Virus record (IMG/VR): IMGVR_UViG_3300017788_000057
Coordinates: 1 to 42,765 of that record
Direction: 5' to 3' (one strand)
DNA length: 42,765 nucleotides
Source: a virus
Part shown: piece after piece, positions 350 through 22,215 of the stretch
How positions within the stretch are numbered: the stretch's first letter is position 1
How the letters are laid out: each line of letters opens with the position of its first letter
Made by a program: the position numbers and the translations under genes
The notes under the pieces: model-generated
The model's input: only the letters and a program-made list of their open reading frames with translations
The model's database searches: none
Told to the model about the DNA's origin: nothing

Positions 350-426
350 TGGTCCGCCTGCTCCGACTCGAACGGAGAACCTTCACCTTATAAGAGTGCT
401 GCGCTGACCTATTGCGCTACAGGCGG
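350..426 (-). tRNA. tRNA-Ile(UAU), CCA encoded
   Basis: Minus-strand cloverleaf: acceptor CCGCCTG/CAGGCGG, D arm GCGC...GCGC, anticodon loop CTTATAA (anticodon TAT), T arm CTCCG-TTCGAGT-CGGAG, discriminator A and an encoded CCA (350-352). The anticodon stem has a T-G and an outer G-A mismatch. It would read AUA codons. UAU is a rare way to decode AUA in bacteria, which normally use lysidine-modified CAU. Confidence 0.85.
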
Positions 427-437
427 GCCGAGGTCGC

Positions 438-492
438 GTAACTGTAGTCGCGCACTCTGCACAGCGCGCCTTTCGACGCGCAAGACTACAGT
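438..492. repeat. Inverted repeat, possible structured RNA or terminator
   Basis: ACTGTAGTC (438-446) and GACTACAGT (484-492) are perfect complements. The interior is GC-rich, with GCGC-type arms that can fold further. The element lies immediately downstream of the minus-strand gene ending at 500 and before tRNA-Ile, so it may be a transcript end or a processing hairpin. There is no strong U-tract. Confidence 0.4.
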
Positions 493-499
493 AGTTAGG

Positions 500-892
500 T
501 TATTTAGCCGCTCTTTCGGCTAAAGTCTTTTTGAGCAGTTCCGCGGATGCGGCAGCGTCCGCTTCAAGCTGCTTTACCCTATCGTAAGCCGGCCGGTCTT
601 CCACAGGTAGCTCCCACCGCGACACAGGTGCGCGGGGGTGCTCAATCGCCCTGTATGTGGGTTTGGTCACATCTACGCGACAGCCCGGTAACACAAACAG
701 TGCAACAACCGTCGTCACAAACAGTCCCCTAAGTACCTGTTTCATAGGGAATCTCTGCGGTGTGTGTGTCGAGGTTGAGCGCCACCACGGTACGCCATAT
801 ACCACTACCCATGTATACCAGAAGTAGACCAGCCCAAGGGTCAACCCCATTTTCATGACGTTGACAATGATCAACAAGAACTCATTTGCCAT
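500..892 (-). CDS. Membrane protein with internal lipobox (130 aa)
   Basis: The ORF starts at an ATG overlapping the end of the SPFH gene by 11 bases, so the two are probably co-translated. Residues about 4-34 form a very hydrophobic segment rich in aromatic residues. A second hydrophobic segment (about 53-70) ends in a lipobox L-P-G-C (Cys71) and is preceded by an in-frame Met50 (start 745). The C-terminal 30 residues are a charged Ala/Glu/Lys helix. Two readings are possible: one two-span membrane protein, or an upstream membrane peptide plus an internally started lipoprotein (M50-C71 is a plausible lipoprotein signal). The second resembles outer-spanin layout, but no Rz partner was found. 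Function unknown. Confidence 0.65.
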   Translation of the reverse strand: MANEFLLIIVNVMKMGLTLGLVYFWYTWVVVYGVPWWRSTSTHTPQRFPMKQVLRGLFVTTVVALFVLPGCRVDVTKPTYRAIEHPRAPVSRWELPVEDRPAYDRVKQLEADAAASAELLKKTLAERAAK

Positions 893-1790
893 TGTTCACT
901 GCCGCATTTAGCGTGGGAAGTAAGATTGCCGGGTTAGAGAGCGCCTCGTACGGCAAGAAAATCACGTTGTTGTTAGAGGCTGCCAAGCCTTCTAGTACGC
1001 GCAAACCGCGTTGGATAACAAACGCTTGCGTTACTTTTGAGGCAAGGATCTCTTCGACACGCGCCTGCGTCTCTGCCTCTAGGAGGTCAATCTCTTGTTG
1101 ACGGCGTGCCACCTCCAGCTTTGCGCCAGCTTGTGTCAACGCAATCGCTTTCTCGGACTCCGCCTTCTCGATAGCGATCTCACGCTCCTTTGCAGCTTCT
1201 TGTGCTCTAACGATGACATCCGGCGGTTGTACGTCGGACAACCCGAAATTGAACACACGGATCGGCGTGTGGCTGAGTTCTTCCGAAATTACCGTTGCCA
1301 TTTCTTGTGAAACGGCTGCGCGATTGGTCAGAACTTCGAGGATTGTGTATCGCGCCAGCGTCTCTCTTGCACGCTGGCGGATGATTGGTTGCGCATATGT
1401 TGCATACACGTGATCGATTGAGATCTGTTTGATTCGACTGTCCTCCGTCGGCGTGTGCGTCAAGCGGCTGAACATGTCCGCAATGACCGCCTCATCCACC
1501 GGAATCGTGGCGGTAAATCGGAGGTCGAAGGTCAGATTGAGACGGTCTTTTGGCATGTAAACGGTCATGTCGACCTCTTCATACGTCTCGTCCGACGTCT
1601 GCGCCAAAATCAAATACGACTTGGCTTCCCACGGCATCACCACAGGTAACCGGAAACTGGATGGAGTCTTGATTCCGTTCTCTAGACCCGTGGGGCCTAG
1701 CACCTTTCCGACAAAACCAGTCGGAATTTCTACGCGCGCGCCACAGCTGGCGAGCAGCATCGCGATACAAGTAATGAGGACGTTTCGCAC
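882..1790 (-). CDS. SPFH/band 7 (prohibitin-like) lipoprotein
   Basis: A 302-residue protein with a lipoprotein signal (lipobox L13-A-S-C16). A band 7/SPFH domain spans about 20-200, followed by a long Ala/Glu/Lys/Arg coiled coil (about 195-255) and a hydrophobic C-terminus with VIFLPYEALSNPAILLP, typical of prohibitin/HflC-type proteins. Family members form ring or cage oligomers on membranes and scaffold proteases such as FtsH. Here the anchor is predicted to be a lipid rather than an N-terminal helix. The start is GTG at 1790, with an A/C-rich leader and no visible Shine-Dalgarno. The neighbour at 500-892 is a small membrane protein that may act with it. A role in superinfection exclusion or membrane remodelling is only inference. 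Confidence 0.85.
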   Translation of the reverse strand: MRNVLITCIAMLLASCGARVEIPTGFVGKVLGPTGLENGIKTPSSFRLPVVMPWEAKSYLILAQTSDETYEEVDMTVYMPKDRLNLTFDLRFTATIPVDEAVIADMFSRLTHTPTEDSRIKQISIDHVYATYAQPIIRQRARETLARYTILEVLTNRAAVSQEMATVISEELSHTPIRVFNFGLSDVQPPDVIVRAQEAAKEREIAIEKAESEKAIALTQAGAKLEVARRQQEIDLLEAETQARVEEILASKVTQAFVIQRGLRVLEGLAASNNNVIFLPYEALSNPAILLPTLNAAVNNGK

Positions 1791-1813
1791 TTTGTGTTGT
1801 TGTTGTTGTGAAT

Positions 1814-1843
1814 AACACCCGCTGTCACGTGACAGCGGGTGTT
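1814..1843. terminator. 30-base perfect palindrome, likely terminator
   Basis: AACACCCGCTGTCAC is followed directly by its reverse complement. It lies between the 3' end of tRNA-Thr (1848) and the start of the SPFH gene (1790), both on the minus strand, so it would end tRNA transcription. There is only a short T stretch (TGTTATT). A symmetrical protein-binding operator is the alternative. Confidence 0.55.
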
Positions 1844-1847
1844 TGGA

Positions 1848-2207
1848 TGGAGCCGGGGGTGGGGCTTGAACCCACGACCTGCTGATTACCTGCCCACGTG
1901 AACTTTCGTTCGAGACTACACTAGGTGTAACTGTGTGGGTTGGACTTTCTCTTTACCCTCGTCTTCACGTTAGGGTACGCCGTGTAAAGTCTCTACACTT
2001 GCCCAGGCTTTTTAGCCTTGCTAGCTCGGGATTGCCATCACCATCACGTGGAAGGTTTCCCCGACTTAGCGGCGTTCAAACTACAGGTTTCTCTGTAGCC
2101 GTCCGTAATTTTTTTATGATTTATACCTGCCTACACGTCGAACTAGGTATAAACAAGATAAATCATACTAGTACAAATCAGCTGCTCTACCACTAAGCTA
2201 CCCCGGC
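1848..2207 (-). tRNA. tRNA-Thr(UGU), split by a group I intron, CCA encoded
   Basis: The 5' exon 2175-2207 has acceptor GCCGGGG, D arm GCTT-AGTGGTA-GAGC, stem GCTGA and loop bases TTT. The 3' exon 1848-1889 begins GTAA, then stem TCAGC, T arm GTGGG-TTCAAGC-CCCAC, acceptor CCCCGGC, base U73 and CCA. Joining after U34 gives a seven-base loop TTTGTAA with anticodon TGT (Thr). All stems pair perfectly across the join, which proves that the two halves belong together. Confidence 0.92.
1890..2174 (-). ncRNA. Group I intron (IC3-like) in tRNA-Thr, 285 nt
   Basis: Core elements on the minus strand: P GGGGAAACC (about 2054-2062), Q AATCCCGAGC (about 2024-2033), R GTAGAGACTTTACACGGC (about 1979-1999), S AAAGAGAAAGTCC (about 1941-1956). 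The P8 and J8/7 region closely resembles, from memory, the Anabaena tRNA-Leu(UAA) intron. The last intron base is G (omega-G, 1890) and the 3' domain has a GAAC-GAAA-GTTC hairpin. The P1 loop holds an extra hairpin (ATGATTTAT/ATAAATCAT). No ORF is encoded. The internal guide is less clear than in the other two introns. Confidence 0.92.
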
Positions 2208-2212
2208 AAAGG

Positions 2213-2289
2213 TGGTAGCGGGGGCCGGATTCGAACCGACGACCTTCAGCTTATGAGGCTGACGAGCTACCAAACTGCTCTACCCCGCG
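2213..2289 (-). tRNA. Initiator-like tRNA-fMet(CAU), CCA encoded
   Basis: A 77-base cloverleaf with anticodon loop CTCATAA. Three initiator hallmarks are visible: no Watson-Crick pair at 1-72 (C1 against U72), A11-U24 in the D stem, and an acceptor and T arm nearly identical to bacterial tRNA-fMet. The anticodon stem is TCAGC/GCTGA, so the usual three consecutive G-C pairs (29-31/39-41) are not kept. CCA is encoded at 2213-2215. Confidence 0.85.
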
Positions 2290-2375
2290 TACCCGAAGAA
2301 ATTGAAGAAACTAAGCAAAGAACGAGTGACCATATTTTTTCCGATAACGATCGCTCAGCGGCTTAGTTGAGTTAA
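2290..2375. other. tRNA spacer with a long-range inverted repeat
   Basis: No ORF is seen. AACTAAGC near 2306 and GCTTAGTT near 2361 are complementary and could close a loop of about 45 bases between two tRNAs. It may help tRNA processing, but nothing else is recognised. Confidence 0.3.
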
Positions 2376-2449
2376 TGGAACGGATAGTGGGATTCGAACC
2401 CACACAGCCGCGGTGGAAACGCGGCATTCTACCATTAAATTATATCCGC
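2376..2449 (-). tRNA. tRNA-Gly(UCC), CCA encoded
   Basis: A cloverleaf with acceptor GCGGATA/TATCCGT, D loop AATGGTAGA, anticodon stem CCGCG/CGCGG around loop TTTCCAC (anticodon TCC), T arm GTGGG-TTCGAAT-CCCAC, U73 and CCA (2376-2378). The discriminator U fits tRNA-Gly. It reads mainly GGA/GGG, whereas the glycine-rich genes nearby use mostly GGC and GGT. Confidence 0.93.
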
Positions 2450-2454
2450 AAAAA

Positions 2455-2540
2455 CCTAGGCTGCGTCCCGAGTCTTCCTTTCTTTTTTTTATTAAGTAGG
2501 TAAGATTCAAAAAATGCGGTCCCAGCGCGTGCAGCCTAGG
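2455..2540. repeat. Perfect 10-bp inverted repeat closing an 86-base element
   Basis: CCTAGGCTGC (2455-2464) and GCAGCCTAGG (2531-2540) pair perfectly and enclose a T-rich stretch (a run of T near 2480-2490). The inner bases next to the stem (GCGTCCCGAG, GCGGTCCCAGCGC) do not make a tRNA cloverleaf. It may be a structured small RNA, a decayed tRNA or a terminator between tRNA-Gly and the gene at 2550. Confidence 0.4.
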
Positions 2541-2549
2541 TGAACTGCA

Positions 2550-2855
2550 TCAGGACTCTTTGTTGATGACCCATGCCGGTAGTGCGTCCAGACGCGCCTC
2601 CGCTTCGGGCGTCACCTCTTGCACCTCGTGAACGCCGATCACCTTGACGTCTGTAGGTGTACACAGCCGCGTGAACCCTGGATCCAGCTTACCGTATGTG
2701 GCAACTTCGGACAATTCCGCAGCGCCTCCCCAGCGGTACAACCGGCGCGCGTTACGCATTTGTACGATGTAGCCGGCGGGGGTTGCTTCCTCGCGGATAA
2801 TCTGACCGTACCAAACTCCGGATCCTGTTGAACGAACAATGTGTTTGAAAGTCAT
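2550..2855 (-). CDS. Conserved small phage protein (101 aa)
   Basis: A compact 101-residue protein without signal or membrane segments. The middle reads NARRLYRWGGAAELSEVATY followed by a Gly-Lys-Leu-Pro-Gly-type turn. This pattern of an Asn-Ala-Arg-Arg start, a Trp, and a Leu-Ser-Glu-Val-Ala helix is reminiscent of small phage/prophage DUF6948-type proteins, a recognition from memory only. The C-terminus is acidic. It follows the glycine-rich array on the same strand and may be its last co-transcribed gene. No Shine-Dalgarno is visible before the ATG. Function unknown. Confidence 0.65.
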   Translation of the reverse strand: MTFKHIVRSTGSGVWYGQIIREEATPAGYIVQMRNARRLYRWGGAAELSEVATYGKLDPGFTRLCTPTDVKVIGVHEVQEVTPEAEARLDALPAWVINKES

Positions 2856-2933
2856 TTGAGTCTGTATTTGAATTTATGTTTTAGTCTGCGTCTGTGTAGA
2901 CTGTCTTACCGAATGTGTTTTTTTGCTTCGCAC

Positions 2934-3215
2934 TTACCTGCCGCCGCGGCCGTCGCCGATACCTTCACCATCGTCTTCGCCGTAGCCGTCGCCGCGACCG
3001 TGACCGTCGCCGTAACCGGCGCAGCGGCCGGTACCAGTACCGAGGCCATCGCCGCCACCGCGACCGTAGCCATCGCTGTAGCCGTAACCGTGACCGGAGC
3101 TATCGCCGTGCCCGTAGCCGTCGCCTTCGCCGGCACCGTCGCCGAAGCCGTAGACATCGCCGCCACCGGAACCGCTACCGAAGCCGTAACGTTCTTTTTT
3201 ATCTTCTTGTTCCAT
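2934..3215 (-). CDS. Gly/Tyr/Asp-rich low-complexity protein, copy 6 (93 aa)
   Basis: Last of six tandem paralogues. The N-terminus MEQEDKKERYG closely matches copy 1 (MEQEDKEEHYG). The rest is imperfect GYG/GDG/GHG repeats with acidic residues, ending RGDGYGEDDGEGIG-DGRGGR. No catalytic motif is present. The real frame is the minus one: the plus-strand frames are Arg- or Ala-rich by-products of the repeat. Function unknown; such sequences are expected to be disordered or to make glycine-loop assemblies. Confidence 0.8.
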   Translation of the reverse strand: MEQEDKKERYGFGSGSGGGDVYGFGDGAGEGDGYGHGDSSGHGYGYSDGYGRGGGDGLGTGTGRCAGYGDGHGRGDGYGEDDGEGIGDGRGGR

Positions 3216-3220
3216 GGTTT

Positions 3221-3502
3221 TTAACCAGCACCGGAGCTGGGACCATCGCCGTAGCCGTAGCCCTCGCCGTCGCCATCGCCGCTACCGGAACCGCGGCCGT
3301 AGCCGTAGCCGTAGCCGTAGCCGTGGCCGATGCCGTCGCCGAAGCCGTAGCTGTGACCGGAACCGCGGCCGTGACCGGAACCGCGGCCGTCACCACAGCC
3401 CTCGTCGCTACCTTCGCCATAGCCGTGACCATAGCCGTCGCCGCGACCGTCGCTTTCGCCAGCGCCGTCGCCGTAATGTTGCGCCTTGGTTTCTTGGTCC
3501 AT
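3221..3502 (-). CDS. Gly/Tyr/Asp-rich low-complexity protein, copy 5 (93 aa)
   Basis: The start was chosen at ATG 3502 because MDQETKAQHYG matches the N-termini of the other copies; the open frame continues upstream as Ala/Thr-rich read-through of the neighbour in another frame. The body is GYG/GDG/GSG repeats with a GYGYGYGYG run. GAAGG lies a short distance before the start and is also the end of the preceding copy. Unknown function. Confidence 0.8.
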   Translation of the reverse strand: MDQETKAQHYGDGAGESDGRGDGYGHGYGEGSDEGCGDGRGSGHGRGSGHSYGFGDGIGHGYGYGYGYGRGSGSGDGDGEGYGYGDGPSSGAG

Positions 3503-3506
3503 GGTT

Positions 3507-3746
3507 CTAGCCTTCGTCTTCACTGTCACCGTAGCCGTCACCATAGCATTCGCCGTGACCGGTACCATCGCCGGAGCCGGTACATACGCCTTTGCCGTCG
3601 CCGCAGCCGCACACGAAACCGAGGCTTCCGCCGTAGCCGTCGCCGCCACCGAGGCCGAAGCCTCCGCCGTAGCCGTAGCCGGAGCCGAAGCCGCCACCGG
3701 AACCGCTGCCGGAGCCGTAGCACTCTTCTTTGTTTTTCTGGTCCAT
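3507..3746 (-). CDS. Gly/Tyr/Asp-rich low-complexity protein, copy 4 (79 aa)
   Basis: The start at ATG 3746 gives MDQKNKEECYG. The body is Gly/Ser/Tyr-rich and differs from the other copies by several cysteines (C9, and VCGCGDGKGVC in the middle), so it could bind metal or form disulfides. It ends SEDEG, like other copies. Four bases separate its stop from copy 5. Confidence 0.8.
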   Translation of the reverse strand: MDQKNKEECYGSGSGSGGGFGSGYGYGGGFGLGGGDGYGGSLGFVCGCGDGKGVCTGSGDGTGHGECYGDGYGDSEDEG

Positions 3747-3753
3747 GATTTTC

Positions 3754-4041
3754 TTAATCTTCGTCGTGACCATAACCCCTGCCGGAACCGTCGCCAGCGC
3801 CGTGGCCGTAGCCGCAGCTGTTGCAGTCGTAGCTACCGTCACCACGACCATGGTTACTGCCGAAGCCGTAGCCATAGCCGACGCCGTCACCGTAGCCGTA
3901 GCCGTGACCTTCGCCGTAGCCGCGACCGGAGCCTTCGCTGTAGTCTTCGCCGTAGCCGTGGCCGTAGCCGTTGCCTCCGCCGTCGCCGTCACCGTCAGCG
4001 AAGCCGCAGCCGTAGTGCCGCATGTTGATTAATCCGTCCAT
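3754..4041 (-). CDS. Gly/Tyr/Asp-rich low-complexity protein, copy 3 (95 aa)
   Basis: ATG at 4041 gives MDGLINMRHYG; a second Met at 4023 (MRHYG) is possible. The N-terminus is the most divergent of the family but keeps HYG. GYG/GDG repeats follow, with YDCNSCGYG (two cysteines) near residue 75 and a GHDED end. Unknown function. Confidence 0.78.
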   Translation of the reverse strand: MDGLINMRHYGCGFADGDGDGGGNGYGHGYGEDYSEGSGRGYGEGHGYGYGDGVGYGYGFGSNHGRGDGSYDCNSCGYGHGAGDGSGRGYGHDED

Positions 4042-4046
4042 AGTTT

Positions 4047-4316
4047 TTAGATGTGACCATGGTCGTAGCCGTAACCGTCGCCGTCGCCGTCGCCGTTGCC
4101 GATACCACACCCGTTGCTGTACCAGCCACCAGCACCGTAACCAGCACCATCGCCAGTACCTTTACCAGCTCCGGCGCCGGAGCTGTCGCCGCGGCCATAG
4201 CCTTGGCCGTCGCCGTTACCGTAGCCATCGCCGAAGCCGAGGCCGTAGCCTTGGCCGTAGCCTTCGCCGACGCCGCAACTGGCACCGTAATGCTGCACCT
4301 TAGTTTCTTGATCCAT
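4047..4316 (-). CDS. Gly/Tyr/Asp-rich low-complexity protein, copy 2 (89 aa)
   Basis: ATG at 4316 gives MDQETKVQHYG, almost identical to copy 5. Repeats of GYGxGYG and GDGxG follow, with a Trp-Tyr-Ser-Asn-Gly-Cys break at about residue 67. The leader CGAAGGCTAGAACT includes the previous copy's stop codon and a possible ribosome site GAAGG. Confidence 0.8.
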   Translation of the reverse strand: MDQETKVQHYGASCGVGEGYGQGYGLGFGDGYGNGDGQGYGRGDSSGAGAGKGTGDGAGYGAGGWYSNGCGIGNGDGDGDGYGYDHGHI

Positions 4317-4320
4317 AGTT

Positions 4321-4398
4321 CTAGCCTTCGTCGCAGTCGTTACCGGAGCCGTCGCCGTCGCCACAACCGTAGTGCTCTTCTTTATCTTCTTGTTCCAT
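4321..4398 (-). CDS. Gly-rich low-complexity protein, copy 1, short (25 aa)
   Basis: A 25-codon ORF whose N-terminus MEQEDKEEHYG matches copy 6 and whose end NDCDEG matches the family C-terminus. It is a copy that has kept both ends and lost most repeats, as expected from recombination inside the repeat. Its leader again contains GAAGGCTA. Confidence 0.7.
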   Translation of the reverse strand: MEQEDKEEHYGCGDGDGSGNDCDEG

Positions 4399-4428
4399 GA
4401 TTTTTAGCCTTCGGCGTCGAAGGAGGAA

Positions 4429-4516
4429 AGGAGAAGGTGGGATTCGAACCCACGGCGCTTGTTTAGAGCGCGCTTGTTTTCAAGACAAGAGCAATAACCC
4501 ACTCTGCCACTTCTCC
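4429..4516 (-). tRNA. tRNA-Ser(UGA)
   Basis: An 88-base class II cloverleaf: acceptor GGAGAAG/CTTCTCC, anticodon stem CTTGT/ACAAG around CTTGAAA (anticodon TGA), long variable arm, T arm GTGGG-TTCGAAT-CCCAC. The discriminator would be U and no CCA is encoded; serine tRNAs normally have G73. Confidence 0.88.
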
Positions 4517-4520
4517 GTAA

Positions 4521-4594
4521 TGAGCCTGGGGGGATTCGAACCCCACACTGTTAAGATCCTAAGTCTTATGCCTCTACCGTTGGGCTACAGGCTC
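4521..4594 (-). tRNA. tRNA with UAG anticodon, nominally Leu, short variable arm
   Basis: A cloverleaf with acceptor GAGCCTG/CAGGCTC, D arm GCC/GGC, anticodon stem TAAGA/TCTTA around CTTAGGA (anticodon TAG, reading CUA) and T loop TTCGAAT. The discriminator is A and there is no CCA. Bacterial tRNA-Leu has a long variable arm, but this one has only about five or six bases, so the charging identity is uncertain. It is not an amber suppressor, which would need anticodon CUA. Confidence 0.8.
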
Positions 4595-4651
4595 GTGTAT
4601 GGTGACCCCTGCCGGATTCGAACCGGCACGCTGTTTAAGGCTGCAGATTTT

Positions 4652-5032
4652 CTTACCACTATAGCTTTCGCTACTACCCATACTTTAATAGTTGACATAC
4701 TCCCCACGACTAAAGCCGGGGGATTCTTGGATTCAAACAGGGATTGCTTGACCGAAGCCAAGTCTGACATCCCCTAGCCCATCGCGTTGATGCCCCAACG
4801 CTTGAATATTCAAAGCAGCAGTAAAGGTATTTGTGGTCTGGACTGTCTCTTTACCTTTTGCATGTTACTGCAGTCAGGTAGCTACCGTACAGTCTCTACA
4901 CTTCCAATTTTCTTATGGCGCTTACCGCAAGAAAAAAGTTTAGCTCGGGATTGCCATTGTTTTACAACAGAAGGTTTCCCCGAATTTGATAGCATTCGCT
5001 AAAGGATTTCGCCTTTAGTGCTCAAATTGTCA
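4652..5032 (-). ncRNA. Group I intron (IC3-like) in tRNA-Leu(UAA), 381 nt
   Basis: Core on the minus strand: guide GAG near 5021, P GGGGAAACC (about 4973-4981), Q AATCCCGAGC (about 4943-4952), R GTGTAGAGACTGTACGG (about 4885-4902), S AAAGAGACAGTCC (about 4841-4853), omega-G at 4652, and a P9-type hairpin TAGTAGCGAAAGCTAT just before the 3' splice site. It is about 100 nt longer than the tRNA-Thr intron. The extra length lies between S and the terminal P9 hairpin and contains the IS605-like sequence at about 4691-4800. Confidence 0.93.
4691..4800 (-). mobile_element. IS200/IS605-type right end / omega-RNA-like remnant in the intron
   Basis: On the minus strand this insertion ends GAATCCCCCGGCTTTAGTCG followed by TGGGGAGTATGTCAAC (4691-4726). 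A GAATCCC lead, a hairpin with a TTTA loop and an end GGGGAGTATGTCAA is the typical right end of TnpB-encoding IS200/IS605 elements, which is also the 3' end of their omega RNA (recognition from memory). Upstream GC-rich sequence to about 4800 may be more of the scaffold. There is no tnpB or tnpA in the window, so it is a remnant or a non-autonomous element. The exact outer border is not defined. Confidence 0.65.
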
Positions 5033-5076
5033 AAGTCTGCTGTGTCTACCGATTCCACCAAGGGGCCGTGTAGGGG

Positions 5077-5168
5077 TGGTGGGAGTGAAAGGATTCGAAC
5101 CTTTATTGTTAACCCTGAGGGACCAGATTTACAGTCTTGCGCAACACCGCCGTCGTTGCCGCACTCCC
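5077..5168 (-). tRNA. tRNA-Tyr(GUA), CCA encoded
   Basis: A class II cloverleaf: acceptor GGGAGTG/CACTCCC, anticodon loop CTGTAAA (anticodon GTA), long variable arm CCCT-CAGGG, T arm AAAGG-TTCGAAT-CCTTT, A73 and CCA at 5077-5079. The anticodon stem has one A-G mismatch. Confidence 0.9.
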
Positions 5169-5173
5169 GTGGT

Positions 5174-5244
5174 CGGTGTGCTGGGACTTGAACCCAGGCC
5201 ATACGGATTAAAAATCCGCTACTCTACCAACTGAGTTACACACC
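5174..5244 (-). tRNA. tRNA-Lys(UUU)
   Basis: A cloverleaf with acceptor GGTGTGT/GCACACC, D arm ACTC-AGTTGGTA-GAGT, anticodon stem GCGGA/TCCGT around TTTTTAA (anticodon TTT) and T arm CTGGG-TTCAAGT-CCCAG. The discriminator is G and CCA is not encoded. Its 5' end overlaps the last codons of the gene at 5236-5433. Confidence 0.9.
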
Positions 5245-5433
5245 GTTTTTTCTTCGTCGGCGACGCTTGTCCGCCTCTTGGTGCTCGGCCCACCATCGCT
5301 TTAGTATCGGCGTATCAATGTACGTGGGTACAAGTTCTGGATGATCCCGCAGCACATCACAGAGTGCGGCCGCCGCCGCCATGTTCTCGTAAGTACCTTC
5401 AGGCGGTCGATTATCGTCTTCGCGACAAGGCAT
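5236..5433 (-). CDS. Small hypothetical protein (65 aa)
   Basis: The ORF is open further upstream, but ATG 5433 (MPCREDDNRPPEGTYENM) is the better start because the upstream part is low-quality coding sequence overlapping hairpins. The body is a helical Ala/Leu-rich segment with PELVPTY and LKRWWAEH, and the end is a basic RRRRRK tail overlapping tRNA-Lys by nine bases. The basic end suggests nucleic-acid contact. No family was recognised. Confidence 0.55.
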   Translation of the reverse strand: MPCREDDNRPPEGTYENMAAAAALCDVLRDHPELVPTYIDTPILKRWWAEHQEADKRRRRRKNGV

Positions 5434-9846: not shown

Positions 9847-10901
9847 TGGCAAAAAGAAACAACATATATGTAAAACCTCAGTTATGTAAAGAGTTCGGGA
9901 TCACGGAACGTGTCTTAACTCATTTGACTGAGCTTAATTTGGTGCGTCCCGACTGGCAGTATCGGCACGGACTGCAGATAGTCGATTTGTCAGAACGCGA
10001 TAGACGTGTTCTGATGTGCGCCAAAAATTCGCCATACAATGAGCATCCACTACGGATGCCTTTCCAGCGGTTTCTGCTGCTTCGCTTTATGCAGATGCCG
10101 CTGGATCTTATTCAATTTGAACTTGAGCAAAAAAACCTATTCGATTGCTCGAAGTTTTCGGACTCCTACCTAAGTGATCTACGGGATAGGTTTTTATTAA
10201 ACTGTCCTGAAGAACTGCACGAGTGCTTACTAGACCACCGACCTCCTAAAAACAAAGAAGAGCGGGAAGTCTTTGACACACTTTTAGATGTCTGTGAAGT
10301 GCGCGTCGCGTACGAGCACCCGGAGTGGGACACGGCCATGGCTTTCATGAATGACATGAAAGTCAAAACAATTGTCGACTGTGCACTAAGCACCGTAGGT
10401 ACGTTCGAGCAAATAGCATTATTCTTACACGAAGTGTTAGGTGTGTCGATAAGTCCGGAAGGTCTTTTGTTCTATCAGCAATTGCTGCATGATATGTCTT
10501 TACTGACGCCTGCGGATATCAAAGCGTACTTTAAAGGTATTCATCCGTCCAGGCGGCAAGAGCTACAGCGCGCGCACGGAACGCCGCTGGACGTATACAA
10601 AGTACAGTCTGGTCTACAAGTCAACGTCGACTCAGATGAGATAATCGAGACGGCCCTCAGCCAAGTGGCGCGCAAGGTACTTGATTTGGCGACCAATATG
10701 GATACAGCCACGTCCGATGAAACGTACAGAGCGCTTCGCGCGTTTAATGTATTACTCGATAGACGCGTTAACGTGGGCCGCACTGCGCGCACAACGGTTA
10801 AGGAGACTGCGCCCGAGTTCTTGAAAACGTTGTCGCTGGCCCCTCAGCCGCCGTCACACGGCAAAATTCTTATACCAGACGGTACTAACGTAGTACTATG
10901 A
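9846..10901 (+). CDS. Terminase-associated protein upstream of TerL (351 aa)
   Basis: GTG start at 9846 overlapping the previous stop. The protein is mainly helical. Residues about 10-60 (LCKEFGITERVLTHLTELNL then HGLQIVDLSERD) look like a winged-helix or MerR-like DNA-reading segment. Its end overlaps the terminase start by four bases. Position and the N-terminal DNA-binding look suggest the small terminase subunit or a packaging accessory, though 351 residues is long for TerS. Not proven by sequence. Confidence 0.5.
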   Translation: MAKRNNIYVKPQLCKEFGITERVLTHLTELNLVRPDWQYRHGLQIVDLSERDRRVLMCAKNSPYNEHPLRMPFQRFLLLRFMQMPLDLIQFELEQKNLFDCSKFSDSYLSDLRDRFLLNCPEELHECLLDHRPPKNKEEREVFDTLLDVCEVRVAYEHPEWDTAMAFMNDMKVKTIVDCALSTVGTFEQIALFLHEVLGVSISPEGLLFYQQLLHDMSLLTPADIKAYFKGIHPSRRQELQRAHGTPLDVYKVQSGLQVNVDSDEIIETALSQVARKVLDLATNMDTATSDETYRALRAFNVLLDRRVNVGRTARTTVKETAPEFLKTLSLAPQPPSHGKILIPDGTNVVL

Positions 10902-12706
10902 CACAGTCTGCAGCTTTTCTGGACGTAACTGTCCCGCCGTCGGCATATAAAGACTTGCGCGAAGCGCATTTGTTGCGTGACGATATCAGTTGCGATGATG
11001 AGACGGTTCCTGCGGAAGATTGGCTATCCCTAAATGCGGCGCTTGAGCGCGCTGCCGATGATCTGGAGCCCGACGTAGCGCCTGAGTTGGACATAACACA
11101 GCAGCAGGTGAATCTTACAGACCTTGTGTCGCAGTATCTCACTGTTGACGGTAAACCGTTTTCGTTCTTAGGCAGAGAATATCTAAGAGGTGTATACGAT
11201 TATTTTTCTGATTATCCGGAAGGTTGTCGAAACATCTTATTATTGTCCTCCAGGCAAATTGAAAAATCAACAACGCAATCAGCTAAGTCGTGTGCGCTGG
11301 CCATGGTCAATCCTGCGTACAAGACGCTGTACATAGCTCCTCGATACGATCAAGTGATCATATTTTCGCAGCAGCGGTTTAAACCCATGTGCGAAGATTC
11401 ACCGCTGATGCTACGTACGTTTGTTAATCCTAACAAATGCTTGTGGCAGGTGAAGGCGCGGCAATTCACTAACGGCGCTTTCTTTAATTTCCGCTCTTGC
11501 TATCTAAACGCAGACAACGCTCGCGGTATATCCGCGAACCATCTGCTTATCGACGAAATTCAGGATATCGTACCGGACGCTATCCCGGTTTTAGAGGAAT
11601 GCCAGGCGCACTCACCCGACAACATTAAATACAACTTGTATGCCGGGACACCTAAAAGCACAGCAAATATTATCACACTACGGTGGGAAAATTCGTGCAT
11701 GTTCGAGTGGTTGACAAAATGCGGCAGTTGTAACCACTGGAACATGAATGACGAGTCGATCATTCAAGACGATAAGTACGCGTGCGCGCGATGTGGTAAA
11801 GCCATAGACATACGCAGTAATGGGTTATGGGTACCCAGAAAACCATCGCTTCTAGATAAACGGTGGGGTTTCCGCATAACACAGATGATGGTACCGTTCA
11901 AAGAACATAAACACATCGTAGCGAAGCGAGACGACCCGAATATATCTAGAGCTAAATACCTTAACGAGACCCTCGGTCTTCCGTATGATGAAGGCGAGAT
12001 GGGCATCACAGATGCCGTACTAGAGCGCGCGTGTAAAGACTACGACATGCTTCAACCGCACCAGATCGCACTTCAGTACAAACAAAGAGGTTTTAAGGTA
12101 TACGCCGGCGTGGATTACGGAACGGCGGAAGGCAGTAATCCATCATTCACAGTACTAACGATCGGCACCATGTTAGCGAACGGAATTTTTCGTGTACTAT
12201 TCATGAAAAAGTTTAAGGGAGCGGAGGCTGATTCTGTCAACGAGCTTAACTTGATCGACCGACTGTGTAGAGCAGCTGACGTTGATTGGATCGGAGCTGA
12301 CTGGGGACACGGCGCACACCAGAACGCCCGGCTCGAGCGCGAGCGGGGATGGCAGCGGGTAGGTTCGCGTGATGTATTGATGGAGTTCCGGTATGTGACA
12401 CAGAAAAAAGAAATGACGTGGAACGGTAAATACTATCACATAGATCGTAACCAAACAATGGGGCGCACGATCGATGCGATAAGACAGTGTGACGAGCCTG
12501 GCGGCATACAGTTTTTCAGGTATACGCAGTTCACCGAATTCCGGTCTGATCTGACTACAATATATCTAGAATACAATCACGATAGAGGGACGTATTCGTA
12601 CCAACATCAATTACCCGACGATGCGTTCCACTCTGTAAATTACGCATATATAGCTGCCAGACAAGGTTCAGGACTAGGACTGCCGTCAGGTTTGCCGTCT
12701 ATTTAG
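10898..12706 (+). CDS. terL: Terminase large subunit
   Basis: 602 residues. The ATPase motifs are in order: a Walker A-like SSRQIEKST (117-125), where Glu122 stands in the usual Gly position before Lys123; Walker B LLIDEI (216-221); and coupling motif AGTPKST (249-255). A zinc ribbon follows (C275/C278 and C296/C299). The C-terminal RNase H-like nuclease is marked by GVDYG (Asp406), GADWG (Asp468) and DDAFHSVNYA near 580. It packages DNA into the prohead at the portal and cuts the concatemer. The zinc ribbon between the domains recalls the GpA-type branch. Confidence 0.93.
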   Translation: MTQSAAFLDVTVPPSAYKDLREAHLLRDDISCDDETVPAEDWLSLNAALERAADDLEPDVAPELDITQQQVNLTDLVSQYLTVDGKPFSFLGREYLRGVYDYFSDYPEGCRNILLLSSRQIEKSTTQSAKSCALAMVNPAYKTLYIAPRYDQVIIFSQQRFKPMCEDSPLMLRTFVNPNKCLWQVKARQFTNGAFFNFRSCYLNADNARGISANHLLIDEIQDIVPDAIPVLEECQAHSPDNIKYNLYAGTPKSTANIITLRWENSCMFEWLTKCGSCNHWNMNDESIIQDDKYACARCGKAIDIRSNGLWVPRKPSLLDKRWGFRITQMMVPFKEHKHIVAKRDDPNISRAKYLNETLGLPYDEGEMGITDAVLERACKDYDMLQPHQIALQYKQRGFKVYAGVDYGTAEGSNPSFTVLTIGTMLANGIFRVLFMKKFKGAEADSVNELNLIDRLCRAADVDWIGADWGHGAHQNARLERERGWQRVGSRDVLMEFRYVTQKKEMTWNGKYYHIDRNQTMGRTIDAIRQCDEPGGIQFFRYTQFTEFRSDLTTIYLEYNHDRGTYSYQHQLPDDAFHSVNYAYIAARQGSGLGLPSGLPSI

Positions 12707-15076: not shown

Positions 15077-15110
15077 TGATCACGGCGTGTTGTAATCACT
15101 AAGGGGCGTG

Positions 15111-18100
15111 ATGTTAGACAAGTATATTCAATTAGGCGGAGGCGATGCTTGGGGACCGGATTACGTACCTATTCATCAACATACGCTTACGAAGATCGCA
15201 TCGAGTTGTTATACTCCGACGTCGTTAATGGACGTGATGGGTAAACTAGTACCGCGACCAGAAGGTCGTTATGTCTTACTAAACGCGCTCGGCGCCCACG
15301 AGTATTGGGGCTGTTTTACAGCAGGGACACTTATAAGCTCGGAGTACGGCGATGTTCCCATCGAGACGCTTAAGCCTGGAGATAATGTACTAACACATAA
15401 AGGTCGTTACAGACCAATTGTTAATACTCAGGTATACGGCAATAAGAGAACCAAACTCATAATCAAAGTAGAAGGTTTATCTGATTCTATTCATGTCACT
15501 CCGGAACATCCGTTCTTAGTAATGACTTCTGATCTGACCTGTAGAAGAGATAAATATAAACGCTGTACTACTATATCGCAAGGCGAGCAGAGTATATGTA
15601 AAAGATATGCTGGTTGCGCTGTGGCTGATGAAAAATTAGAGTTTATACGAGAATGGCGAAATGCTGGAGAATTAGTAAAAGGCGATTTCTTAGCTATCCC
15701 TAAGGATGTTTTTATTGAAAAAGCGCGGATGACCGAAGCAGAGGCCAATTTATTCGGGCTGTTCTTAGCGGAAGGAAATTTTGAAAAATATACTAAAACT
15801 AAAGAAAAAGTAGGTATTCGCCTCAGTTTCAATGAGAACGAAACTCCCACACTAGTCGCAAACGCAGTCAAGTGCGCAGAATCACTTGGCTTAGAGGGGC
15901 GTGTGTATCACCACAAATCCGGAACACAAGTTTGTGTGGTTATTAAATCAAGAGAATTAGCTGCAAAATTCTATTCTTGGAGTGGAGAGTATGCCGCACA
16001 CAAACAGATGCCAAGATGGTTGTTTAATCAGCCTATAAATATTCAACATGCTGTATTGGCTGGTCTATTTGATGGAGATGCTCATTACAATAAAACTACT
16101 GATGTGGTTGTACTACGATTAGCCTCTAAGCAGCTGATATTGGATGTACAGCGGATGTTGCGGAATTGGGGTATAGCGTCTTGCTATCAAGCAAATAATT
16201 GGAGCAAAGAGCATCCAGATATCCTATATCACCAAGTAAGTTTTCCTACTTGGAAACTTCCTGATCTTACTAAATATTCGTCATCTAAATACTATAAAAC
16301 AACACCGCAGCACAAGAAAACACGATCATTTGGTGATGATGAATATTTCTATGTACCTATCAGAAATATTGAAAAATACGAATCAGACGATCTCGTTTAT
16401 AATTTCGAAGTAGAAGAAGATCACTCTTACATAGCCGGCGGCGTGGCCGTGCATAATTGTAACATGAACGGGGACGCGTTCCCTGAATGGAGTCTTAAAG
16501 GCGACCAGCCGCCGAAGTCTGTCCAAGACATCGTCGAGCTTAAAGTCAAACCTAAAATCCCTGATTTCGTCATACCGCACGGGAACTACGGTCATTCGAC
16601 CTTTGTCTCAAACGCGAAGGTATACGTAGGGCACGCAAACACAGATCCCACGAGAAGTATCGGCGACGTTATTGCGTCGGCATATAACGATAAGATGCAT
16701 CGTGTAGAGCTTATCGTTTTTGTATACACGGATCGCAACCCAGAGCTGGTACAAAAAATCGATGCGAATGAGCCGGTACCGTTTTCGATGGGTGCGAAGC
16801 TTCGGTTCGACGTGTGCCTACTCCCTGGCGCCCTTGTAGCAACGCCGAATGGACCTAAAACAATCGAATCTCTGACGGCAGGCGATTTAGTTTTCACACA
16901 ACAAGGCAACACTCAAGAAGTAATCCAGACGTTCGTGACGCCCGGAATACATAATGTACGCAAAATCAAAATAGGTGGTATAGGCGATGATTTACAGATC
17001 ACAGATAATCACCCTGTGTATGTGTTGAAGGCCGAACATGTGCGAGGATGTGCAGGTACAGTCGGCCGCGGCATGGTCCGTAGGCATAGTTTCTCGGGAA
17101 ATGTCTGTAAAAAGTGCGGGATTACTGCCGACGAACTAGCTGGTAAGGCTGCATTTATCAGAGCAGATGACATAGACGTAGGCGATTACGTCTTGTCGCC
17201 GGCGGTGGCGTCTTCTGCAAATGAGGCAATAGACGAATCGCTTGCTTATGTCGCGGGACTTTATCTTGGCGACGGTAGTCTTATATTTAGTACTAGCAAA
17301 AGGCACGGTCGGCGAGCCGTAGGCGTTTCTATTTGCTGTCAAGATGATCTTATCTATGTAGAGCACGTCAAACAGGCTCTAACCAAAGTATCTGATTCGC
17401 CGGTCAATGTTTATGCGGCAGGATCCGATAGAAAGGCTTGGGTCGTACAGACGCACGACAACGCACTTGCGGCGTATCTTCACGGAGCCTGCGGCGTCAA
17501 AAAATCTAAAAAAATACCGGCCCAGATCTGGGCCAGTGGCTTAGAGGCGAGAAAGGCTCTATTGGCTGGTCTGGTTGACAGTGACGGATCAGTGGATCCA
17601 AGGAGGCTGACTACTCGGTTCAGTAACACACTCCCAGCACTGATCCAAGGCGTACAACTACTGGCGACTAGCTGCGGATATGCGAGCACGTATCACTGGC
17701 GCACCTTTACGCAAAGCACGTACAGCGGCGAGGGCGTGTACGCGACAGTGAGCCTCGGGACAGCCTTTACCGCTGACACAAAAGAGCTGAGTTTTAAATG
17801 TGGTAAACACACTACCGTCCCTAGGTGGTCGAATAAAGTATTACAGCTACCGAGACAGAACTGGTTCCCGGTCGAGACTATCGAAGAGGGCGTGTATGAG
17901 GGAGATGTCTACAACATTGCCGTAGAAGCCGATGAAACCTATTTAGTGAATAACGTCGCTGTTCACAACTGTTCGATTTGTCTCAACATCGCGCGCACAC
18001 GCGCAGAGTATTGCGAACACCTGTCCGCCATGCTTCGGCAGACGCTACCGGACGGTCGCCGTGTGTACTCTTATAACTTCTTCCCGCGGTTCTTTGATAT

Positions 18101-18806
18101 CTCATATGTACGTGTCCCGGCAGACCGAAGCGCCTGGGCTTTGAAAAAAGTAGCCGCACTTCCGCAAGCGCTCATACCGACGCACAGACTGACCGACAAG
18201 CTCGCCGAGCTTGTGAAGAAAGAACTGGGTAGTGGCGAAACGCTCGGGTCAACGCCCGTGAATCCAAAGCTCGTCCGGCTTATGACAAGCCGGGTCGTGG
18301 ATGATTACTCTGAGCGGCCGGAGGATCCGGAAATACTGCGCCTAATAGCTCGCTGTAAGATAGAGAAAGCGCTTGCTTCATTAACGGCGATGGGTGTTAT
18401 ATTAAAGCCTCAAGAAGTCGTTAAACTATCTAGTAGATATCCTGCGTTATTCTCACGTTCTTTCTCGCTTAACGACATCGACCCTATGATTGTCCGCGCA
18501 GCAGACGATATCGTTAAGCGAACAACTACACACAACCCTTATCTTATGAAACGGGCGGAAGCTCGTAGCGTGGTTAAGGGTCCACTAGATACAGATAGTG
18601 CGGCGTTTACGCAATATCGGGAGTATCTAAAATCAATTGATTTTAACAAACTAGCGGCGTGGTTGACTACGTCCCCTGTAGCACAGTTAACTCTACAGAT
18701 GGACAATTTCTTATACAAAGTGGCCGGTATAGACACACAACAAACCGGCATCCCCTTATGTCTACCTACAGCCTGTCTAGTCTACTACCTAAATTCGACA
18801 AACTAA
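15111..18806 (+). CDS. Prohead protease-like protein, precursor with two inteins
   Basis: The ATG at 15111 is preferred to GTG 15108 because AAGGGG is better spaced. The precursor has 1231 residues; removing two inteins (68-449 and 569-953) leaves 464. The middle extein (450-568) has NMNGDAFPEW, then VGHAN (His508) with DPTRSIGDVIASAYN, MHRVELIVF, and PFSMGAKLRFDV (Ser559). His and Ser in this order fit an assemblin-type (HK97/T4 gp21-like) maturation protease. The C-extein begins CSICLNIARTRAEYCEHL, a Cys-rich motif of a known phage protein family. Its C-terminal part is helical with KKVAA and YKVAG motifs. It is followed by small acidic proteins and the capsid gene, as expected. Protease activity is inferred. 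Confidence 0.75.
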   Translation: MLDKYIQLGGGDAWGPDYVPIHQHTLTKIASSCYTPTSLMDVMGKLVPRPEGRYVLLNALGAHEYWGCFTAGTLISSEYGDVPIETLKPGDNVLTHKGRYRPIVNTQVYGNKRTKLIIKVEGLSDSIHVTPEHPFLVMTSDLTCRRDKYKRCTTISQGEQSICKRYAGCAVADEKLEFIREWRNAGELVKGDFLAIPKDVFIEKARMTEAEANLFGLFLAEGNFEKYTKTKEKVGIRLSFNENETPTLVANAVKCAESLGLEGRVYHHKSGTQVCVVIKSRELAAKFYSWSGEYAAHKQMPRWLFNQPINIQHAVLAGLFDGDAHYNKTTDVVVLRLASKQLILDVQRMLRNWGIASCYQANNWSKEHPDILYHQVSFPTWKLPDLTKYSSSKYYKTTPQHKKTRSFGDDEYFYVPIRNIEKYESDDLVYNFEVEEDHSYIAGGVAVHNCNMNGDAFPEWSLKGDQPPKSVQDIVELKVKPKIPDFVIPHGNYGHSTFVSNAKVYVGHANTDPTRSIGDVIASAYNDKMHRVELIVFVYTDRNPELVQKIDANEPVPFSMGAKLRFDVCLLPGALVATPNGPKTIESLTAGDLVFTQQGNTQEVIQTFVTPGIHNVRKIKIGGIGDDLQITDNHPVYVLKAEHVRGCAGTVGRGMVRRHSFSGNVCKKCGITADELAGKAAFIRADDIDVGDYVLSPAVASSANEAIDESLAYVAGLYLGDGSLIFSTSKRHGRRAVGVSICCQDDLIYVEHVKQALTKVSDSPVNVYAAGSDRKAWVVQTHDNALAAYLHGACGVKKSKKIPAQIWASGLEARKALLAGLVDSDGSVDPRRLTTRFSNTLPALIQGVQLLATSCGYASTYHWRTFTQSTYSGEGVYATVSLGTAFTADTKELSFKCGKHTTVPRWSNKVLQLPRQNWFPVETIEEGVYEGDVYNIAVEADETYLVNNVAVHNCSICLNIARTRAEYCEHLSAMLRQTLPDGRRVYSYNFFPRFFDISYVRVPADRSAWALKKVAALPQALIPTHRLTDKLAELVKKELGSGETLGSTPVNPKLVRLMTSRVVDDYSERPEDPEILRLIARCKIEKALASLTAMGVILKPQEVVKLSSRYPALFSRSFSLNDIDPMIVRAADDIVKRTTTHNPYLMKRAEARSVVKGPLDTDSAAFTQYREYLKSIDFNKLAAWLTTSPVAQLTLQMDNFLYKVAGIDTQQTGIPLCLPTACLVYYLNSTN
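15312..16457 (+). mobile_element. Intein 1 (382 aa) with LAGLIDADG homing endonuclease
   Basis: Starts with Cys1 (CFTAGTLISSEYGDVPIETL, block A), block B SIHVTPEHPFLVM, two LAGLIDADG motifs (LFGLFLAEG and LAGLFDGDA), block F NIEKYESDDLVYNFEVEEDH and block G YIAGGVAVHN. The next extein residue is Cys, so class 1 splicing looks complete. It is inserted before CNMNGDAF. Its sequence is visibly more AT-rich than the exteins, a sign of recent arrival. Confidence 0.93.
16815..17969 (+). mobile_element. Intein 2 (385 aa) with LAGLIDADG homing endonuclease
   Basis: Starts with Cys1 (CLLPGALVATPNGPKTIESL), block B ITDNHPVYVL, LAGLIDADG motifs YVAGLYLGDG and LLAGLVDSDG, block F VYEGDVYNIAVEADETY and block G LVNNVAVHN. 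The +1 residue is Cys of CSICLN. An insert with CxxCG near 17107-17121 looks like part of a zinc site. Base composition is closer to the phage than in intein 1, and the two are only distantly alike, so they entered separately. Confidence 0.93.
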
Positions 18807-20955: not shown

Positions 20956-22215
20956 ATGACTGATTTCGGTAGAGATTTTAACAACATGTTCGGTGAAGCA
21001 CTGAGCCGGGGTGGAGAGCATTTGAATAAAGTGGCCGAAGTAACGGGCCTTTATATCCAAGAGAAGCTGCGTGAGAACTCGTTCGCACGCCAGATTCTTC
21101 CTCCACAAACCGTGACTGTTGCTGAGCTGACGCGTAGCGAAACTTCTGAGGACCTGATCTATATTGATGACATTGAGCCGGATTCGCTGGCTATGCGCAT
21201 CAACATGCGTGGTGAACCTGAGAAGACTTATATTCAAGGCGACAAGTATTCGATTCGCATCCAGACGATCTCCTCGGACCGCTTCCAAAAGACGGAGCAA
21301 GAGCTCCGTTCTTACCGGATGCCTATCACGAAGATCATCGAGCAGAATACGGTCAAAGACATGCAAGAGCAGGTCGATACTAAGTTCATGGAGCACGTTC
21401 GGGCAGGTATTGTGCTTGCGACGACGGCGCGTATGAACGAGATGGTCGGCCGCAGCATGGCTAAGAACAAAGTAGCTGCTAACGGCGATACGACCGGTAC
21501 AGATTACTCAGGTAAAAACTTCTACAACGCAGCCTGTTTGGCGTCGTATCTGTTTACACGTAACGTCGCTCGCCTCGAGCATGGCGGCGCGTTGGCTAAC
21601 GCTAACCCAGCCGCTTTTGGTTCGTTCTCGGCGGCGCACGCGAACTACAACCCGGCTGACGGTCTTTTCTCGAACATCATCATGTCCGAAGAGACGACCT
21701 TCAATCGTCGGGTTGTTGCGCAGCTTGTGAAGATTCCGGCAGCTCGTCAAATGAAGGCGCGCGTTATCCTGCTGCACGAGTACGATTGGAACGACACGCT
21801 GGCGTGGACCAACGAAGACGCAGGCTACGATCTCGTCAAAGAGATTGTCGTCGGCGGCTATAAGTACACGACCGTCGGTGGTTTCACCTATGTGACCACG
21901 CTTCGTGATAATCCGGCGATCCTTCAGCCTGGCCAGATCTACGTTTTCCCAGCTCCAGAGATGCTGGGCCGCTTCCTTACCTTACAGAACACCCAGTTCT
22001 ATATCAATAAGGAAGGTCGCTTCTTCAGCATGGAAGCATGGGAAGAGTGCGGCGTAGGCTTCGGTAACGTAAAAGGCTTGGGCCTCGTACTTCTTGCTGG
22101 TGCTTCGGTCACGCTGCCGCAGTACTTCTTGACGCTTGCGAACGCGCCGACGGGCGGTACCGGTGCCACCGGCTCGTTCACGCTGGTGAACAACCCGGCT
22201 GCGCCGATCGGCTGA
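20956..22215 (+). CDS. Major capsid protein
   Basis: 419 residues, HK97-like in layout: a charged N-terminal arm, an E-loop-like region (about 75-105 with PEKTYIQGDKYSIRIQTISS), a long spine helix (FQKTEQELRSYRMPITKIIE), then A-domain sequence and a Gly-rich end. It contains LNKVA at residues 23-27, the only K-x-A motif, near the N-terminus where a propeptide could be cut. Codon choice is noticeably more uniform and GC-rich than in neighbours, as expected for the most expressed gene. It has flanking terminators on both sides. Identification is from overall pattern and context. Confidence 0.85.
   Translation: MTDFGRDFNNMFGEALSRGGEHLNKVAEVTGLYIQEKLRENSFARQILPPQTVTVAELTRSETSEDLIYIDDIEPDSLAMRINMRGEPEKTYIQGDKYSIRIQTISSDRFQKTEQELRSYRMPITKIIEQNTVKDMQEQVDTKFMEHVRAGIVLATTARMNEMVGRSMAKNKVAANGDTTGTDYSGKNFYNAACLASYLFTRNVARLEHGGALANANPAAFGSFSAAHANYNPADGLFSNIIMSEETTFNRRVVAQLVKIPAARQMKARVILLHEYDWNDTLAWTNEDAGYDLVKEIVVGGYKYTTVGGFTYVTTLRDNPAILQPGQIYVFPAPEMLGRFLTLQNTQFYINKEGRFFSMEAWEECGVGFGNVKGLGLVLLAGASVTLPQYFLTLANAPTGGTGATGSFTLVNNPAAPIG

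Follow-up and report, generated by a model that had tools for sequence, protein, structure and literature searches.

Two inteins placed on either side of the catalytic segment of a phage protease raise the question of whether they act as a timing device for the enzyme or are selfish elements that have settled in a conserved gene. Such a gene is found in a 42,765-base uncultivated virus record, the whole of which was analysed and is here called the window. A preliminary description of this DNA suggested that the core of a prohead protease is held between two bulky LAGLIDADG inteins until both splice, and that this might delay proteolysis until capsid assembly. The analysis below leads to another answer, in which a head-maturation protease of the gp21/herpesvirus fold has very probably been invaded at two sites by selfish class-1 LAGLIDADG homing inteins.

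Structure of the gene

The frame at 15108-18806 encodes 1232 residues when read from an in-frame alternative start, GTG 15108, and 1231 residues from ATG 15111. A ribosome-binding-like AAGGGG precedes ATG 15111 with a spacing that fits this codon better than the GTG, and His508 and Ser559 are numbered from the ATG. Excision of both inteins in silico leaves exteins of 67, 119 and 278 residues (Table 1). The 119-residue extein lies between the inteins and holds His508 and Ser559 just as first described, and the pair is invariant among the homologues apart from one gap. Soon after the catalytic Ser there is a near-invariant CxxC...CxH motif, located at 17970-18020 in the window and present in the homologues, which T4 gp21 does not have.

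Table 1. Features of the protease locus in the window and intein insertion sites in the protease family
Feature	Position	Strand	Remarks
Terminase large subunit	10898..12706	+	Upstream, head-module context; phrog_675, E=9.8e-68
Intein-containing head-maturation (prohead) protease gene	15111..18806	+	One open frame, ATG 15111, stop 18806
N-extein, 67 aa from ATG	15111..15311	+	Gap-free at junction against inteinless relatives
Intein 1 (site a), 382 aa, GC 39.4%	15312..16457	+	Pfam Hint_2, Intein_splicing, LAGLIDADG_3
Intein 1 block B, TPEH	15498..15509	+	
Intein 1 four-Cys cluster, block B to endonuclease	15540..15617	+	Conserved in same-site inteins of L117, L172
Intein 1 LAGLIDADG motif 1, LFGLFLAEG	15750..15776	+	
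Intein 1 LAGLIDADG motif 2, LAGLFDGDA	16056..16082	+	
Intein 1 C-terminal His-Asn and extein Cys+1	16452..16460	+	
Middle extein, 119 aa	16458..16814	+	NxNGDAF motif and both predicted catalytic residues
Predicted catalytic His508	16632..16634	+	His in 104/105 homologues, one gap
Predicted catalytic Ser559 in PFSMGA	16785..16787	+	Ser in 105/105 homologues
Intein 2 (site d), 385 aa, GC 50.2%	16815..17969	+	Pfam Hint_2, LAGLIDADG_3, Hom_end
Intein 2 block B, TDNH	17001..17012	+	
Intein 2 LAGLIDADG motif 1, VAGLYLGDG	17250..17276	+	
Intein 2 LAGLIDADG motif 2, LAGLVDSDG	17562..17588	+	
Intein 2 C-terminal His-Asn and Cys+1	17964..17972	+	Cys+1 is first Cys of zinc-like motif
C-extein, 278 aa	17970..18803	+	Starts with CSIC...YCEH zinc-like motif
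CEH of zinc-like motif	18012..18020	+	Third Cys is site-e insertion point in L172
Major head protein	20956..22215	+	Downstream, likely protease substrate or partner; phrog_2522, E=4.7e-8
Site a, just before NxNGD			Window intein 1, L086, L117, L172
Site b, directly after catalytic His			L088
Site c, two residues after catalytic Ser			L081, L083, L088, L089, L151, L156, L159
Site d, before first Cys of CxxC...CxH			Window intein 2, L032, L172
Site e, before third Cys of CxxC...CxH			L172

Identity of the protease

Both the spliced extein (E=1.2e-6) and 29 of 32 relatives have a match to phrog_18299, 'head maturation protease'. No Pfam model scored above its cutoff against the extein and a sequence-profile search of the PDB matched no protease. 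A model of the protease domain of an inteinless relative, L020, built on 32 sequences (pLDDT 83.6), has T4 gp21 (5jbl) as its best structural match in VIA-align 2 (Z 9.6, rmsd 3.0 over 129 residues); herpesvirus assembly proteases come next, with Z of about 6-9. Prohead proteases were also among the viral-model matches. A first model from six sequences was discarded because of its pLDDT of 48.5. Foldseek alone was equivocal, with MlaD first and T4 gp21 second (E=0.048); after realignment with VIA-align 2, gp21 and the herpesvirus proteases rank clearly first. Comparison with T4 gp21 by hhalign was not significant (probability 0.2%); it pairs the catalytic Ser, Ser179 of L020, with Ser140 of gp21, and VNRN with VNRN.

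The gene lies in a head module, where two or three other genes separate it from the terminase upstream and several small genes from the major head protein downstream. The succession of terminase, protease and major head protein is kept in four relatives (L010, L012, L013 and L016). That the extein is a protease, as the preliminary description had supposed, agrees with the assembly-protease fold of the L020 model, the invariant His and Ser, the phrog_18299 match and the head-module position. The predicted identity as a head-maturation protease is thus well supported by fold, conservation and context together with a modest PHROG score.

Proteins annotated as hypothetical or structural in Mycobacterium phage Ghost (gp97, L019), Salmonella phage Arash (gp222, L018) and Vibrio phage D181 (L017) match the protease domain and are likely to be unannotated head-maturation proteases. 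Relatives were also found in bacterial assemblies, particularly of Desulfovibrio, Bilophila and Mailhella (L092-L100), which suggests that prophages of this group occur in Desulfovibrionaceae. Elsewhere in the window, the first 5.3 kb contain seven tRNA genes on the minus strand (350-5245) and, near them, a gene for an SPFH/Band_7 domain protein (882-1790, minus strand, Pfam E=4.7e-15).

The two inteins

Profile searches found matches to Pfam Hint_2, LAGLIDADG_3 and Hom_end in each intein, with PF13403 and PF14528 above cutoff in both. Intein_splicing (PF14890), with a curated cutoff of 35.8 bits, scores 39.9 bits in intein 1 and 30.7 bits, below the cutoff, in intein 2 (E=3e-7). Both have the residues that define class 1, with Cys1, TPEH, His-Asn and Cys+1 in intein 1 and Cys1, TDNH, His-Asn and Cys+1 in intein 2. 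The block F His is present in intein 1 and absent from intein 2. Each also keeps the full endonuclease length and a pair of LAGLIDADG motifs in which the acidic residues are present. Judged by these motifs, they are two complete class-1 LAGLIDADG inteins for which splicing is predicted. Homology, the structural model and the inteinless relatives agree that two such inteins lie in a prohead protease around its His/Ser segment, which confirms this part of the first reading.

When each intein was used as a single-sequence query against the viral collection no relatives were found, and same-site kin were reached only through the host gene. A cluster of four Cys is seen in the site-a inteins (15540-15617 in the window, and the first inteins of L117 and L172), with a similar cluster in the site-e intein of L172. 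In the site-a inteins it is possibly a zinc-binding element for DNA recognition.

Empty alleles and insertion sites

A search of the viral collection with the joined extein identified inteinless relatives, of which L003 and L005 are 60-61% identical overall and 73.5% over the protease domain. These two and L012, L013 and L014 are continuous across both intein junctions, and the alignment is free of gaps there, which is the outcome of the comparison with inteinless relatives that had been proposed as a check.

Both inteins had been described as placed before a conserved Cys. This holds for intein 2, since 101 of 102 empty alleles have Cys after site d, but not for intein 1. After site a, the closest empty alleles have Val and others have Pro, Ser, Cys or Ala. 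The four invaded alleles all have Cys or Ser there, whereas only 32 of 101 empty alleles have Cys, Ser or Thr (Fisher p=0.012 for sequences that are not independent of each other). Cys or Ser at this position in invaded alleles is the pattern required by splicing chemistry.

An intein hotspot in the protease family

After two further scans, 105 distinct complete protease domains, including that of the window, were available. Twelve of the 105 carry 16 inteins distributed over five sites, with up to three per gene; the resulting carrier rate of one in nine is approximate because distinct sequences found by peptide patterns were counted. Related proteases have an intein at site a only, site d only or site c only, or inteins at a+d+e or b+c. 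L172:607-5475 is a triple carrier (sites a, d and e) with a single frame of 1623 codons, and L088, with sites b and c, is a second double carrier. No second triple carrier was found in a scan with the C-terminal region of L172. A large insertion in L067 was rejected as an intein because neither Hint nor endonuclease motifs were seen. The protease family is an intein hotspot, and the open-access literature rendered no report of inteins in a head-maturation (prohead) protease.

Phylogeny and movement of the inteins

Same-site inteins are usually nearest kin. In the intein tree the site-d inteins (window intein 2, L032 and the second intein of L172) form one clade with support of 100/99. Window intein 1 falls together with the L117 intein and the first intein of L172 (92/72). 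The site-a intein of L086 is placed apart from the other site-a inteins, pointing to a probable second invasion of this site. In the extein tree the window is sister to the inteinless L020 and L022 (100/97), and the presence of inteins is therefore patchy.

Site-c inteins resemble each other more closely than their host domains do: 47% against 34% identity for the exteins in L081 and L089, 49% against 37% for the exteins in L088 and L156, and 46% against 37% for the host domains in L083 and L156. This indicates that site-c inteins have moved between divergent phages. The inteins of the window are 36% (site a) and 38% (site d) identical to those of L172 while the exteins are 53% identical; having diverged more than the exteins, these two copies provide no evidence of a recent transfer. 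They might reflect an old transfer, unsampled donors, or inheritance combined with loss in sister lineages. Taken together, the patchy occurrence, the mixed site combinations and the likeness at site c point to homing of selfish elements.

Base composition

Intein 1 is more AT-rich than intein 2, as noted at the outset (39.4% and 50.2% GC), and nowhere else in the window is the AT content so high. None of 787 equally long segments elsewhere is as GC-poor, the minimum outside being 43.2%, whereas intein 2 matches the genome (50.3% GC for the whole window). The low GC content suggests an AT-rich source for intein 1, without amelioration since its arrival. The further claim that the inteins came at different times was drawn from GC alone and is not shown, the two inteins being about equally diverged from their same-site alleles in L172. 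GC content was rejected as a clock of intein arrival; the foreign composition of intein 1 gives no order of events.

Proposed course of events

The precursor of 1231 amino acids would be translated in one piece. Each intein would then excise itself by means of its Cys1 and Cys+1 nucleophiles, the block B TxxH and the C-terminal His-Asn, and two ligations would yield a protease of 464 amino acids that is expected to join the prohead and cleave head proteins. In a co-infecting relative the intein endonuclease would cut the empty allele at its own site, and repair would copy the intein in. The inteins split the catalytic fold, since site a immediately precedes NxNGD and site d follows the catalytic Ser at a distance of ten residues. 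A precursor that has not spliced is for this reason very likely inactive, and splicing presumably must precede protease activity.

Residues around the active site are nearly invariant, which would make the protease gene a repeated target for inteins. Mycobacteriophage TerL1 has five insertion sites in the active centre of one gene (PMC5050341), and haloarchaeal MCM has four (PMC10643990). These hotspots resemble that of the protease and are explained by homing into conserved active centres. Independent selfish invasion fits the distribution over five sites better than a built-in delay switch.

Alternative explanations

Besides homing, the endonucleases might be used against co-infecting relatives without inteins, whose essential protease gene they would cut to the benefit of the intein-bearing phage. 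The motifs kept in both endonuclease domains and the empty alleles in close relatives are compatible with such a role, and there is a precedent in the PhiPA3 intron endonuclease, which blocks assembly of PhiKZ progeny (PMC11620839). However, homing repair would usually rescue the target. The role is unlikely, and it would add to the selfish reading and not replace it.

The inteins could also be remnants that have lost homing but kept splicing. Neither has a close relative in the viral collection and the same-site relatives are only 36-38% identical, but homing domains are usually the first to erode, and here both inteins have kept the LAGLIDADG motifs, the acidic residues and the full endonuclease length. 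Loss of homing is therefore quite improbable.

For the inteins to be an evolved switch, slow or conditional splicing would have to hold back the protease until the prohead is built. The insertions do flank the His/Ser segment, and conditional splicing is known elsewhere, one of two DnaB inteins in Mycobacterium smegmatis being oxidation-sensitive (PMC6195587). Against this, the nearest relatives do without inteins, the bracketing is not conserved, other homologues having inteins at a only, d only, a+d+e, b+c or c only, and no splicing residue has been lost. Assembly proteases of the gp21/herpesvirus fold are as a rule regulated through their uptake into the prohead and autocleavage there. Both homing domains appear to be intact, and site-c inteins have moved more readily than the host genes. 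The delay of the protease until capsid assembly that was first suggested thus finds no support and is highly improbable. It is likewise highly improbable that zinc or the redox state controls how intein 2, and the site-e intein in L172, are spliced. The idea arises because the Cys that acts as +1 nucleophile is also predicted to bind zinc in the mature protease; if true, active site and zinc motif would be completed only together, in a real post-translational timing step.

Comparison with known systems

The protease family combines five insertion sites with natural empty alleles and with genes that carry one, two or three inteins, and its +1 residues either allow an intein to reside or prevent it. 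This makes it a compact natural system for studying how several inteins come to coexist in an essential phage gene, and whether the speed of splicing has an effect on the maturation of the capsid. An intein inside a serine protease was reportedly described before, in ClpP of Chlamydomonas eugametos by Wang and Liu in 1997. ClpP has an unrelated protease fold and is there encoded by a chloroplast gene with a single intein.

The T4 gp21 prohead protease (PDB 5jbl) shares the fold (Z 9.6), the Ser/His pair, the NxN motif and the position upstream of the major head protein, but it lacks inteins and the zinc-like CxxC...CxH and has no significant profile similarity to the window family. DnaB of M. 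smegmatis likewise has two inteins in one essential protein (PMC6195587); these differ in class and one is conditional, whereas the inteins of the window both look like class 1. The TerL1 inteins of mycobacteriophages are also homing inteins at several active-centre sites of a phage packaging or head gene (PMC5050341), though the host protein differs, the present family being a head-maturation protease with up to three inteins per gene. In haloarchaeal MCM (inteins a-d) several non-allelic inteins likewise occur in one gene and doubles are common (PMC10643990). Empty alleles of MCM-d mostly have Pro and invaded alleles Ser, similar to Pro, Ala or Val against Cys or Ser at site a. MCM is an archaeal helicase for which homing has been tested in vivo (PMC10643990), whereas in the protease homing is inferred from the distribution and likeness of the inteins.
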